Part shown: positions 51,804-59,441 of the stretch, piece by piece
Layout: each line of letters starts with the position of its first letter
Numbering within the stretch: position 1 is the first letter of the stretch
Assembly: GCF_025352425.1 (NCBI RefSeq)
Contig: NZ_JANXTI010000008.1
Location: 1-64,000 of the forward strand
DNA length: 64,000 nt
DNA from: Flavobacterium sp.
GTDB lineage: Bacteria > Bacteroidota > Bacteroidia > Flavobacteriales > Flavobacteriaceae
Direction of reading: 5' to 3'
Notes under the pieces: model-generated
Seen by the model: the letters and a program-made list of their open reading frames with translations, nothing else
Database searches by the model: none
Told to the model about the DNA's origin: nothing
Program-made: the position numbers and the translations under genes

Positions 51804-54800
51804 ATGAAAAAAAACTACTTATCACAAAAAACAAAATTTCTGCTAGAATTATTTTTGAAACAAAAATATATCTTACTTCTAGCTACGCTCATTCTTTTCC
51901 CAGGAAACTTTACGATAGCTCAAACAGCCGGACCAAACAATGCCGGAACTGGTGCTAACAATGCTGCAACCGGAACAATCGGATGGACAAATTCAGGAAA
52001 TATTACTGCTGCTGACGGCGTTAATGCTACAGTTGCTGTTACAAGTGGTGCATTCACCAATTATATCCATGGAAGCAATTATGGTTTTTCTATTCCGGCT
52101 GGTGTAGTAATTAATGGTATTGAAGTTATAATCAATAGAAGAACAAGTGCTAATAATGGTGGCAGGGTTACTAGTGACAGTGTTGTTAAATTAGTAAAAA
52201 ACGGTTCTGTTCTTGGCAATAACAATGCGGCAATTGGCGTTGGTTATCCAACTGCCTTAACTACTGCAACGTATGGAAGCCCGACTGATAAATGGGGTTT
52301 AACATGGTTAGCTTCTGATATTAATGCTTCAAATTTCGGCGCTGTATTATCCGTAACTGCGAACAATTCGCTTACTGCTTCTGTGGATTATATTCAAATT
52401 AAGGTCTATTATACACCTGCGCCAACGATTTCAAGTTTTACAGCTACAAATGCCTGTATTGGCTCAACTCCTTCAATAGTTATTACAGGAAATCATTTTA
52501 ATACAGCTACTAATGTTAGTTTTAATGGTGTTTCTGCTTCATTTACAGTTAACAGCAATACACAAATTACGGCAACCTTACCTGTTAGTGCTACAACCGG
52601 AACTATAACAGTTAACTCGCCGTCAGGAACAGGAACCAGTGCCAGTAATTTCACTGTAAATCCTTTACCTGTTTTAAATCCTATTACAGGAACCACATCA
52701 GTTTGTATTGGTTCTACTACTACCTTGTCAAATTCAACTTCGGGCGGTAGCTGGAATAGTGCTTCAACTGGAGTTGCCACCATAAATTCAAGTGGCGTTG
52801 TTTCGACTGTTTCCGCAGGTACTTCAATTATCACTTATTCTTATACTAATGGAAATGGTTGTACAAGTTCTGTAAATACTACAGTTACTGTTAATGCACT
52901 TCCTGTGGTTTCATCACCAACCAGTGTATGTATTGGAAATTCTATTCAATTAAGCCCCAATTCAGGAGGAACTTGGACTAGCAGTGATAATACCAAAGCA
53001 ACGATTGATAATACCGGACTTGTAAATTGTCTTGCACCAGGAAGTACAACTTTCACTTTTACCAATTCAACCACAAATTGTAGTAAAACAACCAATACTG
53101 TAAATGTATTGGCATTACCTGCAATAAGTTCACAACCTATTGCTACACAAACTATTTGTTCAGGAAGTTCAGTTAGCTTTTCGGTAAGTGCGACTGGAGT
53201 AGGATTGACCTATCAATGGTACAATGGCGCTACTGCATTAAATAATGTGGGTTCAATTGCGGGTGCAACAAGTGCTACTCTTACTATAAATCCAGTTGCT
53301 TTAGGCGATGCATCAGTAAATTACAATTGCATTGTAAGCGGAACTTGTTCTCCAGCTGCAACTTCAGCAAATGCTGAGTTGATAGTAATAGAAAAAGTTA
53401 TTATAACTTCTCAACCTGTTGCAACTCAAACTTTATGTACAGGAGATACTGCAACATTTGTAGTTGCTGCTACTGGAACCAGTTTGAGTTATCAGTGGTA
53501 CAAAGGTGTTACAGCCTTAGTTGACGGCGGGTCCATTTCAGGTGCAACATCAGCAACGTTAACAATAAATCCAGTGGTGACCAGCGATGCAGCAACCAAT
53601 TATAAATGTGTGGTTTCGGGAACGAGTCCGTGTGTTGCGGCAACTTCAAATAACGCGGCTTTGGTTGTCAACCAACTTCCTGCAATTACCTCCCAACCTG
53701 CAGCTTCTCAAACTATATGTTCCGGGAGTTCCGTTAGCTTTTCGGTAACTGCGACGGGATCTAATTTAACATACCAATGGTTTAATGGAGCGACTACTAT
53801 GACTAATGGTGGTTCAGTTTCAGGAGCCACATCAGCAACCTTAACAATAAATCCTGCAAGCACTTCAGATGCTTCAGCAAATTATAAATGTGTCGTTAGC
53901 GGAAGCTGCGTTCCTAATGTTACTTCCAATGATGCGGCATTAATAGTTAACCAAATTGTTTCCATAACAAGTCAACCTGTCCTTACCCAAACTATATGTG
54001 CTGGAAGCCCAGCTACTTTTTCAGTCGCGGCAACAGGAACCGGATTAAGTTATCAGTGGTATAAAGGTGTGACAGCCTTAGTTGACGGTGGATCCATTTC
54101 AGGTGCAACATCGGCAACGTTAACAATAAATCCTGTCGTGACCGGCGATGCAGCAACGAATTATAAATGTGTGGTTTCAGGAACAAGTCCGTGTGCGGCG
54201 GTAACTTCAAATAATGCGGCTTTGGTTGTGAATCAACTTCCTGCAATTACCTCCCAACCGGCTGCTTCCCAAACTATATGTTCCGGGAGTTCCGTTAGCT
54301 TTTCGGTAACGGCAACAGGTACTAATTTAACATACCAATGGTTCAATGGAGCGACTCCTATTGCTAATGGTGGTTCGGTTTCAGGAGCCACATCAGCAAC
54401 CTTAACGATAAATCCCGCAAGCACTTCAGATGCTTCAACAAATTATAAATGTGTTGTTAGCGGAAGTTGTGCTCCTAGTGTTACTTCAAATGATGCGGCA
54501 TTAATAGTTAACCAAATTGTTTCCATAACAAGTCAACCTGTCATTACCCAAACTATATGTGCTGGAAGCTCAGCTACTTTTTCAGTTGCGGCAACCGGAA
54601 CCGGATTGAGTTATCAGTGGTATAAAGGAGCAATTGCCTTAACTAATGTCGGATCGATTTCAGGCGCAACATCGGCAGCCTTAACAATTAATCCAGTCGT
54701 TACCGGAGATGCGGCAACCAATTATAAATGTGTTGTTTCAGGAACAAGTCCGTGTGCTGCGGCAACTTCAAATAACGCGGCTTTGGTTGTCAGCCAACTT

Positions 54801-57776
54801 CCTGCAATTACCGCCCAACCGGCAGCTTCTCAAACTATATGTTCCGGGAGTTCCGTTAGCTTTTCGGTAACTGCGACGGGATCTAATTTAACATACCAAT
54901 GGTTTAATGGAGCGACTACTATGACTAATGGTGGTTCAGTTTCAGGAGCAACATCCGCAAGCTTAACAATAAATCCTATAAGCGCATCAAATGCTTCATC
55001 GAATTATAAATGTGTCGTTAGCGGAAGCTGTGCTCCTAGTGTTACCTCAAATGATGCGCAACTCATAGTCAGTCCAAAGGCGGTTATTCCAACTCAAACC
55101 GTTACTACCTGTAGTCAAAGTGGATTTAGTCTTACACCTATTGACGGAGTTCCAAACGCGAGTACCGTTGTGCCATCGAACACTTTATATTCGTGGTCAG
55201 CACCGAGTGTTACCGGCGGAATGACGGGTGGCGCTTTACAGAACGGACAAACTTCTATTGTCGGAACTTTAACCAATAATACCAACGTAAATCAAACAGC
55301 CACCTATACTGTTACACCTGCTTCCGGAATTTCGCCAATTTGTAGCGGCTCATCGTTCACTGTAATTGTAACGGTAGAACCTAAACCATTTGTACAAAAT
55401 GTAACTGCGACAGTTTGTACCGAAAACAGTTTAACTTTTACGCCAACAAATGGCAGTGGAAATATCATTCCAACTGGAACTTTATATTCATGGGGAATTC
55501 CTGTGGTTACAGGCGGAATTACGGGTGGAACAGCTGGAAGTAATCAGGCTTCGGTTGTTCAGACTTTAACAAACCCTACAACTAGTGCGCAAACAGCGAC
55601 TTATACCATAACTCCAACTTCTGGAAATTGTAATGGAAGTACATTCACCTTAACGGTTACTGTCAACCCAAAACCGACAACAACCGTAAATATAGCTACT
55701 CAAACAGCTTGTTCCGGAATTGCATTTTCAGCGATTGTTGTCGGCAATACTAATAACCTAGCTACGACTTATACCTGGACGCGAGATAATACTACTAATG
55801 TGTCCGGCACCACAAGTGGAACTTCGGGGGTAATTGCTGCCGGTAGCACGTTTTCACTTTCTCAAATTTTGACCAATAATACCGCAATTGCGCAAAGTGT
55901 TATCTATACTTTCACTCCTACATCTAATGGTTGTGTCGGAAATCAAATTACATCTACCGTTATTGTTAATAATTCTTCTGTTGGCGGTACTGTTTCAAGT
56001 TCCTTACCGGGAGTTACTCCGGTTGTCAGAACCATAACAGAATGTCACTTCGCTACCGGAACAGTTTATCTAACCGGTCATGTTGGCAATGTCGTACGTT
56101 GGGAATATAGTAGTAATGGAGGATCAATATGGGTGCCTATTGCAAACACGACTGCAAGCAATACTTACACAAACATTACACAGTCAACTATATTTAGAGC
56201 TGTGATACAAAATGGTGCTGCCTGTAATTTGGCTTATTCACTGGTAACAATGGTAAATGTTATTCCAAATATCAAACCCACGCCGGTAACTGCTACACCT
56301 CAGACTATTTGTGCTGGCGATTCATCAAATTTATATTCAGAAAGTGGGTTTGCTACTAATGCGTTCATCGCAACGGGCGGTACATTTAGCAACTCTAATC
56401 CTGTTAACTGGTTAGTTGATGGCTGCGGGAATTGTTTAAATGCAAGTAACAACTCTACCGGCCCTTTTAGATTAAGTGCCAGCAACGGAGGTACCTATGC
56501 AGGTATTAATTATACGGCATCTGGTAAATTTGCTATCGCTAGCGGAAATTTTAACTCAATAATGCAAACGCCTATTTTCAGCACTTTGGGACTCTCATCT
56601 GGTACTTTAAGTTTCAATCATGCCTTTAATCTTCAAACCGGTGCATCCATATCGGTAGAGTTATCATTGGATGGCGGTGTAACCTATACAGTCGTATTAG
56701 CTCAATATTTGGGTGCAAGCACAAGAAGTCCGTATAACGCTTTCCCGCTTGAAACTATTGATTTGAGCAATTATATTGGGCAAACAAATTTAAGAATTAG
56801 GTTTGTATATAATGGAAATGCCAATAGCTCCTGGGCGATCGACAATATTGATATCCCGGACGCTCCTTTAAATTTGACATCAGAATGGGTAGATTCCTCG
56901 ACAGGGTTGGTAATAAGTACGACAGCAACTGCAGTAGTAAGTCCAACAATAACTACAACATACGCTATTACCTCTCACTTAAACGGATGTACAAGTACCG
57001 GCCCTAATGGAACTACTTATATAACAGTTACCGTCAATCAGCGGCCAACCGCCTCTATTGGCCCATCACAAACCATTTGTAACGGAGGAACGGCAACTTT
57101 TAGCGTGGCTTTAACCGGTGTCGCACCTTGGAGCGTAACCTATAGTAATGGAACCACTTCAACGACAGTAAATAATATCAATACGAATCCGTATGTATTT
57201 AGTATCTCAGGGATCACCGTTAATCAAACCTATACTATAACAGCTTTAAGCGACTCAAAATGTACTGCAAAACCGCAAGATTTGACTGGTTCAGCGGTGG
57301 TTACTACACTAAACGGCGTTGCAGGACTATGGACAGGATTAGTAAGCAACGATTGGTTTGATTGTAAAAACTGGGCTGGCGGATTACCATCGGCAACCAT
57401 AAATGCACAAATTCCTAACGGATTATCCCGATATCCAATTGTTGACCCTTCAACTTCAAGCTATGCGTCATTGTATAGCGGTATCGCCAACGCACAGGAC
57501 GTAATAATTGCCAATGCCGCATCAGTGACCATGGCGACCAGCTCGAATTTGTATGTTAGCAGGGATTGGAAAAACAGCGGTACTTTTACACCTGGACAAG
57601 GAACTGTTACCTTTAATAGTGCGACATTAAATCAGATTCAAGGGATTAATTCCGGAATTAAAACAAATGAAACTTTTTATAACTTAACATTAAACAATTC
57701 CAATAGTGCGATTGGGATTAGCATTGTTGACGGATTTGAATTAACAGTTGCAAATAATTTATCTTTATTGAATTGA
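51804..57776 (+). CDS. Giant Ig-like/PKD-like repeat surface protein, N-terminal part; ends just before the C-terminal segment (apparent frameshift)
   Basis: Signal region LLLATLILFPGNFTIAQ; many ITSQP...TICSGSSVSFSVTATG...YQWFNGAT...YKCVVSG repeats; ends ANNLSLLN-stop with no T9SS domain. Confidence 0.9.
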   Translation: MKKNYLSQKTKFLLELFLKQKYILLLATLILFPGNFTIAQTAGPNNAGTGANNAATGTIGWTNSGNITAADGVNATVAVTSGAFTNYIHGSNYGFSIPAGVVINGIEVIINRRTSANNGGRVTSDSVVKLVKNGSVLGNNNAAIGVGYPTALTTATYGSPTDKWGLTWLASDINASNFGAVLSVTANNSLTASVDYIQIKVYYTPAPTISSFTATNACIGSTPSIVITGNHFNTATNVSFNGVSASFTVNSNTQITATLPVSATTGTITVNSPSGTGTSASNFTVNPLPVLNPITGTTSVCIGSTTTLSNSTSGGSWNSASTGVATINSSGVVSTVSAGTSIITYSYTNGNGCTSSVNTTVTVNALPVVSSPTSVCIGNSIQLSPNSGGTWTSSDNTKATIDNTGLVNCLAPGSTTFTFTNSTTNCSKTTNTVNVLALPAISSQPIATQTICSGSSVSFSVSATGVGLTYQWYNGATALNNVGSIAGATSATLTINPVALGDASVNYNCIVSGTCSPAATSANAELIVIEKVIITSQPVATQTLCTGDTATFVVAATGTSLSYQWYKGVTALVDGGSISGATSATLTINPVVTSDAATNYKCVVSGTSPCVAATSNNAALVVNQLPAITSQPAASQTICSGSSVSFSVTATGSNLTYQWFNGATTMTNGGSVSGATSATLTINPASTSDASANYKCVVSGSCVPNVTSNDAALIVNQIVSITSQPVLTQTICAGSPATFSVAATGTGLSYQWYKGVTALVDGGSISGATSATLTINPVVTGDAATNYKCVVSGTSPCAAVTSNNAALVVNQLPAITSQPAASQTICSGSSVSFSVTATGTNLTYQWFNGATPIANGGSVSGATSATLTINPASTSDASTNYKCVVSGSCAPSVTSNDAALIVNQIVSITSQPVITQTICAGSSATFSVAATGTGLSYQWYKGAIALTNVGSISGATSAALTINPVVTGDAATNYKCVVSGTSPCAAATSNNAALVVSQLPAITAQPAASQTICSGSSVSFSVTATGSNLTYQWFNGATTMTNGGSVSGATSASLTINPISASNASSNYKCVVSGSCAPSVTSNDAQLIVSPKAVIPTQTVTTCSQSGFSLTPIDGVPNASTVVPSNTLYSWSAPSVTGGMTGGALQNGQTSIVGTLTNNTNVNQTATYTVTPASGISPICSGSSFTVIVTVEPKPFVQNVTATVCTENSLTFTPTNGSGNIIPTGTLYSWGIPVVTGGITGGTAGSNQASVVQTLTNPTTSAQTATYTITPTSGNCNGSTFTLTVTVNPKPTTTVNIATQTACSGIAFSAIVVGNTNNLATTYTWTRDNTTNVSGTTSGTSGVIAAGSTFSLSQILTNNTAIAQSVIYTFTPTSNGCVGNQITSTVIVNNSSVGGTVSSSLPGVTPVVRTITECHFATGTVYLTGHVGNVVRWEYSSNGGSIWVPIANTTASNTYTNITQSTIFRAVIQNGAACNLAYSLVTMVNVIPNIKPTPVTATPQTICAGDSSNLYSESGFATNAFIATGGTFSNSNPVNWLVDGCGNCLNASNNSTGPFRLSASNGGTYAGINYTASGKFAIASGNFNSIMQTPIFSTLGLSSGTLSFNHAFNLQTGASISVELSLDGGVTYTVVLAQYLGASTRSPYNAFPLETIDLSNYIGQTNLRIRFVYNGNANSSWAIDNIDIPDAPLNLTSEWVDSSTGLVISTTATAVVSPTITTTYAITSHLNGCTSTGPNGTTYITVTVNQRPTASIGPSQTICNGGTATFSVALTGVAPWSVTYSNGTTSTTVNNINTNPYVFSISGITVNQTYTITALSDSKCTAKPQDLTGSAVVTTLNGVAGLWTGLVSNDWFDCKNWAGGLPSATINAQIPNGLSRYPIVDPSTSSYASLYSGIANAQDVIIANAASVTMATSSNLYVSRDWKNSGTFTPGQGTVTFNSATLNQIQGINSGIKTNETFYNLTLNNSNSAIGISIVDGFELTVANNLSLLN
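53404..55086. repeat. Higher-order tandem repeat: about 3 copies of a 561-bp (187-aa) unit made of two alternating Ig-like domains
   Basis: atcagtgg at 53491, 54052, 54613 and tgcaatta at 53681, 54242, 54803: all steps exactly 561 bp. Confidence 0.92.
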
Positions 57777-59401
57777 GTGGGGACTTAAGATTAGTTGGTG
57801 AGGCTCAAATTGTTCAAAACGGAACAGCAGCGAATCCAACAACCGGAACCGGAAAGATTTTAAAAGACCAACAGGGTAACAGAAGTAGTTATCACTATAA
57901 CTATTGGTCATCACCGGTTACTACCAACGGCACTAATTATACTTTAAACGGTGTCTTAATGGACGGGACAGACTCAGCTACAAATCTATTTAATCCAAGT
58001 GCTATAACTTTTGGCGCGGGTGCTTATTTTGCAGATGGGGCAGTAACAAATCCTGTTAAACTTAGTATACGTTGGATGTATAAATATACAAGCGTCAGCA
58101 CAGCTTATGCAGGATGGCAATATATTGGGAGTACAGGAACCATTAATATCGGCGAAGGTTTCACAATGAAAGGAGTTACCGGAATTGCACCATTTACAAC
58201 TCCGCAAAATTATGTTTTTGTTGGTAAACCGAATAATGGGACTATTCCTTTGTCGATTTCTTTAAATCAAAGTTATCTAGTTGGAAATCCATATCCATCT
58301 GCATTAGACGCAGATGAATTTATTAAAGATAACATAAAAGATGGTGCCGGAAGAGCGGCTACAAATATTTTTAACGGGGCGTTATATTTTTGGGATCATT
58401 TTGGAGGACAAACTCATATTTTGACTCAATATATCGGTGGCTATTCAAGTTATACATTAATGGGTGGAGTTGTAGCGATTTCAAACGATCCGTTGATAAA
58501 TGCTAACGGCTCAATGGGAACTAAAGTCCCAAAACGATACATTCCGGTAGCTCAAGGATTCTTTATTGGTACTGGCTCAAATTCAGCATTGACAGGAAAT
58601 AATCCAGGTTTAAGTACGGCAGTTACTGGTGGCACCATTAATTTTAAGAACAGTCAACGAACTTTCAAAATTGAATCAGCGAGCAATTCGGTATTTTTCA
58701 AGTCTGGCAATCAGATTCAAACAGCAAGTGACACCATTGATACAAGACAAAAAATCAGATTATTGTATCAATCACCTTCTAATATATACCGACAAATTTT
58801 AGTAGGTGTTGATGAGAACGCTACCGATTATTTTGATGTAGGTTATGATGCTCCGATTATAGATGAAAATGCTGAAGATTTATATTGGAAAACTACCGAT
58901 ACCAAATTGACTATTCAGGGGGTTTCAAATTTTAATCTAGACCAAATAGTACCTCTAGGCCTAAAAACTTCTACAGCTGGTATATGCACAATTAAAATTG
59001 ACACATTGGAAAACATCTCTGAAGATACTCAATTATACATTCATGATGCAGAAACGGGAACGGATTATGATATTAAAAATGCCGACTTCAGTATTTCGTT
59101 ACCTGTTGGCATATACAATGATCGATTTTCCCTTCGTTTCACGGGAAGTGCATTAGGGACAGACAATCCAAGTATTACAAACACTTTTGCTTCGATTTCC
59201 AGTCATGTAATAAGAATAGAATCGATTGAATTTATTAAAGAAATCAGTCTTTATGATATAGCCGGAAAACTTATCAATACTTACTCTCCAACCGAGATTT
59301 CAAACCAATTTTCGGCCGCCTTCAATTATCCTAATGGGGTTTACATTGCAAAAATTACTTTGGGCAATGATGTTGTAGTTACCAAAAAATTAATAAATTA
59401 A
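57773..59401 (+). CDS. C-terminal part of the same surface protein, with T9SS type A sorting domain (shifted frame; TTG pseudo-start)
   Basis: SGDLRLVGEAQIVQNGTAANPTTGTGKILKDQQGNRSSYHYNYWSSPV... ending EISLYDIAGKLINTYS...NGVYIAKITLGNDVVVTKKLIN; no signal peptide. Confidence 0.85.
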   Translation: MSGDLRLVGEAQIVQNGTAANPTTGTGKILKDQQGNRSSYHYNYWSSPVTTNGTNYTLNGVLMDGTDSATNLFNPSAITFGAGAYFADGAVTNPVKLSIRWMYKYTSVSTAYAGWQYIGSTGTINIGEGFTMKGVTGIAPFTTPQNYVFVGKPNNGTIPLSISLNQSYLVGNPYPSALDADEFIKDNIKDGAGRAATNIFNGALYFWDHFGGQTHILTQYIGGYSSYTLMGGVVAISNDPLINANGSMGTKVPKRYIPVAQGFFIGTGSNSALTGNNPGLSTAVTGGTINFKNSQRTFKIESASNSVFFKSGNQIQTASDTIDTRQKIRLLYQSPSNIYRQILVGVDENATDYFDVGYDAPIIDENAEDLYWKTTDTKLTIQGVSNFNLDQIVPLGLKTSTAGICTIKIDTLENISEDTQLYIHDAETGTDYDIKNADFSISLPVGIYNDRFSLRFTGSALGTDNPSITNTFASISSHVIRIESIEFIKEISLYDIAGKLINTYSPTEISNQFSAAFNYPNGVYIAKITLGNDVVVTKKLIN

Positions 59402-59408
59402 TTATAAA

Positions 59409-59439
59409 TAAAAAATCCCGCTTTAATCGGGATTTTTTA
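59409..59439. terminator. Bidirectional intrinsic terminator between the adhesin and obg
   Basis: AAAAATCCCG-ctttaat-CGGGATTTTT. Confidence 0.88.
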
Positions 59440-59441
59440 TT

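Follow-up and report, generated by a model that had tools for sequence, protein, structure and literature searches.

According to PMC4022640, which cites Waite et al. (2001, 2003) for them, short tandem duplications in bacterial surface genes, either phase-variable or inactivating, occur in the pneumococcal type 3 capsule locus, cap8E/wchA, and tts; the same source states that insertions no longer than nine bp revert at about 1e-5 at most. The closest counterparts of the gene considered here are the giant surface proteins of Flavobacterium that carry a T9SS type A CTD and CHU_C-associated Ig_7/PKD_5 repeats (e.g., the L039–L053 orthologues), with which it shares a putative signal peptide, the repeats, a conserved pre-CTD region, and a sorting domain, and its neighbors are the same as those in Flavobacterium sp. 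AS60.

The gene lies in a stretch of 64,000 nucleotides (the window), part of contig C34 of a draft genome of 2.72 Mb (104 contigs, 99.5% complete); judged by this locus, the closest named relatives are Flavobacterium species. Two overlapping frames (Table 1) have the coordinates, ends, TTG start, and T9SS domain that an earlier sequence-only reading of the DNA had assigned to them. ORF1 contains a putative signal peptide (by eye), Ig_7/PKD_5 repeats, and the start of a domain that spans the break; PKD_5, Ig_7, and Big_2 were matched (Pfam). Its start is signal-peptide-like (MKKNYLSQ...ILLLATLILFPGNFTIAQ-TAGPN), the Sec signal being judged by eye without a predictor, and its C-terminus reads ...VANNLSLLN, followed by TGA. 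The downstream frame is open from 57758, directly 3' of a TAA at 57755–57757, and runs to 59401. The sorting domain that marks T9SS type A cargo is found at the end of this frame: TIGR04183 (NCBIfam; residues 488–546) scores 30.8 bits against a cut-off of 23, and the Pfam domain Por_Secre_tail reaches 23.7 bits for the protein, short of its cut-off of 27, and 28.6 in the genome search, which exceeds it. In this genome the putative signal peptide and the sorting domain do not stand on one polypeptide, being split by a doubled 5-bp sequence. The T9SS translocon is encoded by a full-length SprA (2818 bits) and five intact PorP-family genes, and thus the T9SS pathway is present.

Table 1. Features of the split T9SS cargo gene in the window.
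Feature	Position	Strand	Description
ORF1	51804..57776	+	1990 aa; N-terminal part of giant T9SS cargo protein; out-of-frame TGA at end
Ig-like repeats within ORF1 (seven, alternating, ~280 nt each)	53118..55026	+	About 65–76% DNA identity
Stretch with both frames open	57758..57776	+	19 nt, by direct reading; sole place where a frame change could join the frames
Perfect 5-bp tandem duplication, ATTGA ATTGA	57767–57771 and 57772–57776	+	TGA stop (57774–57776) within second copy
ORF2	57773..59401	+	542 aa; TTG start; no signal peptide; rest of same ancestral gene, with T9SS C-terminal domain
B-derived sorting-domain segment fused to A body	59160..59401	+	Breakpoint about 59141–59170, ALGTxNP linker

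Comparison with homologous sequences identifies ORF1 and the sorting-domain frame (57758–59401) as the two halves of one ancestral gene. The frame is uninterrupted across the junction in all 44 homologues fetched from a species-level collection (upstream open frame 285 to 2404 residues, in some loci limited by the end of the sequence stretch), which bears out the earlier proposal that a frameshift lies between the adhesin body and the T9SS sorting domain. Alignment to full-length orthologues, suggested at the time as a check, gave one continuous gene as the ancestral state, consistently separate ORFs occurring in none of the 44. Across 60 related genomes, the best matches to the downstream half sit in long frames that extend upstream. 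The nearest orthologue, in AS60 (L039), is a single frame of 2538 aa, nearly equal in length to the sum of ORF1 and the downstream frame. ORF1 has 74% identity to residues 9–1119 of this orthologue and 66% identity over its own last 283 aa, ORF2 has 79% identity to residues 1991–2535 (AS60 gene A), and the genes flanking the locus correspond to those in AS60.

It is very unlikely that the two ORFs are independently started genes, the second being translated after ribosomes reinitiate at a TTG overlapping the stop (TTGA). The TTG/TGA overlap could permit translational coupling, but no homologue is split at the junction (0/44), for which reason separate genes were rejected; moreover, the second product would lack a signal peptide, promoter-like sites do not exceed the number expected by chance, and the break would fall within a run of beta strands. 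The last point comes from a low-confidence structure model of the AS60 C-terminal region (mean pLDDT 54.8), used only for placing the junction, which falls inside a beta-strand run at about residues 104–215 (local pLDDT mostly 56–86). In another Flavobacterium genome, with a fragmented assembly of 590 contigs, a homologue (L018; G031 C224:10486–12062) has a frame break ~340–365 residues into the downstream part, at a site other than that in the window.

At the junction, the window DNA reads TT ATTGA ATTGA GTGGGGAC. The 15 closest Flavobacterium orthologues all read LTVxNxLxLxSGDLR here, with small substitutions and constant length, and the pentamer repeat is absent from every one of them; a single copy of ATTGA would give the orthologue length. 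The single extra T by which the sequence-only reading had restored the frame does not fit: the resulting NNLSLLN-LSGDLR would exceed 15/15 close orthologues by two residues, and a single-base indel was rejected because orthologue length is constant at the junction. The lesion is instead a perfect 5-bp tandem duplication, a typical product of strand slippage, which accounts for the frame change and the length together. Of 19-nt stretches drawn at random from this gene, only 0.5% hold a perfect pentamer repeat. Tandem pentamers are not enriched across the window (68 observed vs. 67 expected from shuffled sequence), and a window-wide pentamer-repeat hotspot was rejected on this count.

Programmed -1 frameshifting or transcriptional slippage might in principle join the frames, which overlap by 19 nt and of which the downstream one is conserved, but such recoding is extremely improbable. 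The overlap (57758–57776) has no long homopolymer run and, as already stated in the earlier reading and judged by eye, no canonical X-XXY-YYZ heptamer; the frame break is unique to this genome (0/44 homologues), arguing against a conserved recoding signal, and the joined product would be two residues too long. Slippery-site recoding was rejected for want of a site and of a conserved split. The alternatives predict different peptides: recoding of the two-copy gene would yield the junction peptide NLSLLNLSGDLR, and reversion to one copy would yield NLSLLSGDLR, two residues apart.

The sorting domain itself has a separate history. In AS60 and the four next relatives (L040–L043), two giant T9SS genes, A and B, stand in tandem at this position; a single such gene occupies it in the window. 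The body of this gene aligns with A, but the sequence from ~59141–59170 to the stop, together with the terminator beyond (region 59141–59440), matches B: the tail has 75% identity to the AS60 gene-B tail and no meaningful match to the A tail. A search of the rest of the genome for the body of gene B gave no copy of it, only paralogues of 34–47% identity (43% for the strongest). By these alignments, the window gene is a chimera that took its sorting domain from a lost adjacent giant paralogue, B, an origin that is beyond what a reading of a single window could reveal. A deletion of about 7.4 kb between the pre-CTD linkers of A and B (cf. L039 9647–17020) would have left the A body with the B sorting domain, and is proposed because it explains the A body, the B tail and terminator, and the missing B body. 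The fusion illustrates the transfer of a T9SS sorting domain from one giant adhesin to another; a literature search on T9SS sorting-domain exchange returned nothing apparently relevant.

Similar lesions were sought among 52 sorting-domain loci of this genome, using a crude signal-peptide rule and with the non-T9SS comparison confined to genes of the window. Two of the 52, both encoding RCC1-repeat proteins, also shift frame just upstream of the sorting domain. One (G000 C36:52522–53700; L085, L113) has lost its frame through GGTACAAATC x2, a perfect 10-bp tandem duplication, at a site where the homologues in L154/L159 are intact and read NRTQPVQIGTDTDW. In the other (G000 C44:32400–33129; L087, L112), the frame changes just before the sorting domain, for which a doubled GT dinucleotide (TGTG) would be the simplest account. 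These counts of duplication-broken T9SS cargo genes are suggestive only. It is an improbable generalization that, in this lineage, short tandem duplications, themselves liable to be lost, keep several giant T9SS surface proteins switched off, with sorting domains exchanged between neighbors by deletion; if true, surface display would be varied through slippage and recombination, not by dedicated switches. Two further observations concern sorting-domain genes at large. The same sequence edge (TTACACCCAACGGGTTAA) occurs beside several of them (L089, L099, L115, L128, L132), in several cases ~130 nt from contig ends; it probably marks one end of a repeated insertion element lying within or beside T9SS cargo genes. 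The contig of the window also carries an isolated 83-codon sorting-domain remnant (G000 C34:93195–93395; L083), with no evident coding sequence just upstream.

A single assembled allele bears the entire case for a real mutation, and in a long repetitive gene with a second oddity (the A/B fusion) an assembly fault is thinkable. The gene would then be intact, and the extra 5 bases would stem from the consensus, perhaps through mixed strains or local misassembly in repeats. This explanation, to which the draft state of the assembly (104 contigs), the repeats, and the fusion lend some weight, is unlikely. Roughly 50 AS60 genes align well within the window, and the frame is broken in this one alone, the others being full length (two more frame flags in the comparison were spurious antisense frames), so that general sequence error is unlikely. 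The Ig repeats lie >2.7 kb upstream of the lesion, a clean 5-bp duplication is atypical of short-read error, and the same class of lesion is seen in a second T9SS cargo gene, that on C36. Exact 141-nt overlaps between contig ends (C76/C77, C18/C17) point to de Bruijn short-read assembly with k = 141, from which one would expect no clean 5-bp duplication and no join over an ~8-bp shared run, and which makes joining through short shared sequence unlikely. On these sequence features, a real mutation is favored over an artefact.

A real duplication might also represent one position of a reversible on/off switch for surface proteins, precise loss of a copy restoring the frame. The locus does have the frame-breaking perfect tandem duplication expected of a phase-variable gene (ATTGA x2, 57767–57776), its downstream coding sequence is well preserved, three T9SS cargo genes of this genome appear duplicated by 5, 10, and 2 bp, and in capsule genes of the pneumococcus, short tandem duplications that arise spontaneously give reversible phase variation (Waite 2001, 2003, as cited in PMC4022640). 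Such a switch is nonetheless improbable. The pentamer repeat occurs in 0/15 close orthologues, which speaks against a conserved, predisposed switch, and for this reason the locus was not classed as a phase-variable gene; two copies of a 5-mer are few, with insertions of up to 9 bp reverting at most at about 1e-5 (PMC4022640), and tandem pentamers in the window occur at the chance rate. A literature search on reversible microhomology duplications found no paper. Among the causes listed in the earlier reading, a true inactivating indel is thus preferred to sequencing error, phase variation would be possible at a low rate, and recoding is disfavored.

Compared with AS60, the downstream half as far as the fusion point (first 459 codons) has dS 1.11, dN 0.062, and dN/dS 0.056; lineage-specific amino-acid changes number 13 in the window gene and 11 in AS60, with no acceleration, and the CTD compared with its source, AS60 gene B, has dN/dS 0.093. 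Given this strong constraint on the downstream half, the break is recent: up to a short time ago, selection maintained this half within a working protein. The low dN/dS shows that any loss of function is recent; it does not by itself show that function has been lost.

Ancestrally, the locus was a single gene encoding a giant surface protein with Ig/PKD repeats, exported by the T9SS, in which recent slippage doubled ATTGA at 57767–57776, shifting the frame and bringing a TGA immediately in frame. By the known logic of the pathway, the N-terminal fragment would still be Sec-exported to the periplasm and, without the C-terminal domain recognized by the type IX translocon, would not be attached to the surface; the C-terminal fragment, without a start or signal peptide of its own, would be untranslated or cytosolic. 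Precise loss of one ATTGA copy could restore the frame, an event that would be rare with two 5-mer copies. The most likely outcome for the product is a null allele, at most slowly revertible. Taken as a whole, the account of a real, recent ATTGA duplication that broke one ancestral T9SS surface-protein gene to give a null allele is probably correct. The ambiguous split gene becomes a defined mutation, a 5-bp tandem duplication, in what is otherwise a routine loss-of-function allele; it is best described as a null allele, of recent origin and possibly revertible, of the gene for a giant T9SS surface protein, produced by an ordinary gene-breaking mutation with no new mechanism.

Compared with its giant orthologues in Flavobacterium, the window gene differs in being split by a frameshift and in having its sorting domain swapped with that of the adjacent paralogue. 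With the pneumococcal capsule duplications it shares a perfect tandem duplication, within a reading frame, that breaks a gene for a surface structure and whose precise loss is possible in principle. It differs from them in affecting T9SS cargo of Flavobacterium and in having a unit of only 5 bp without flanking microhomology.
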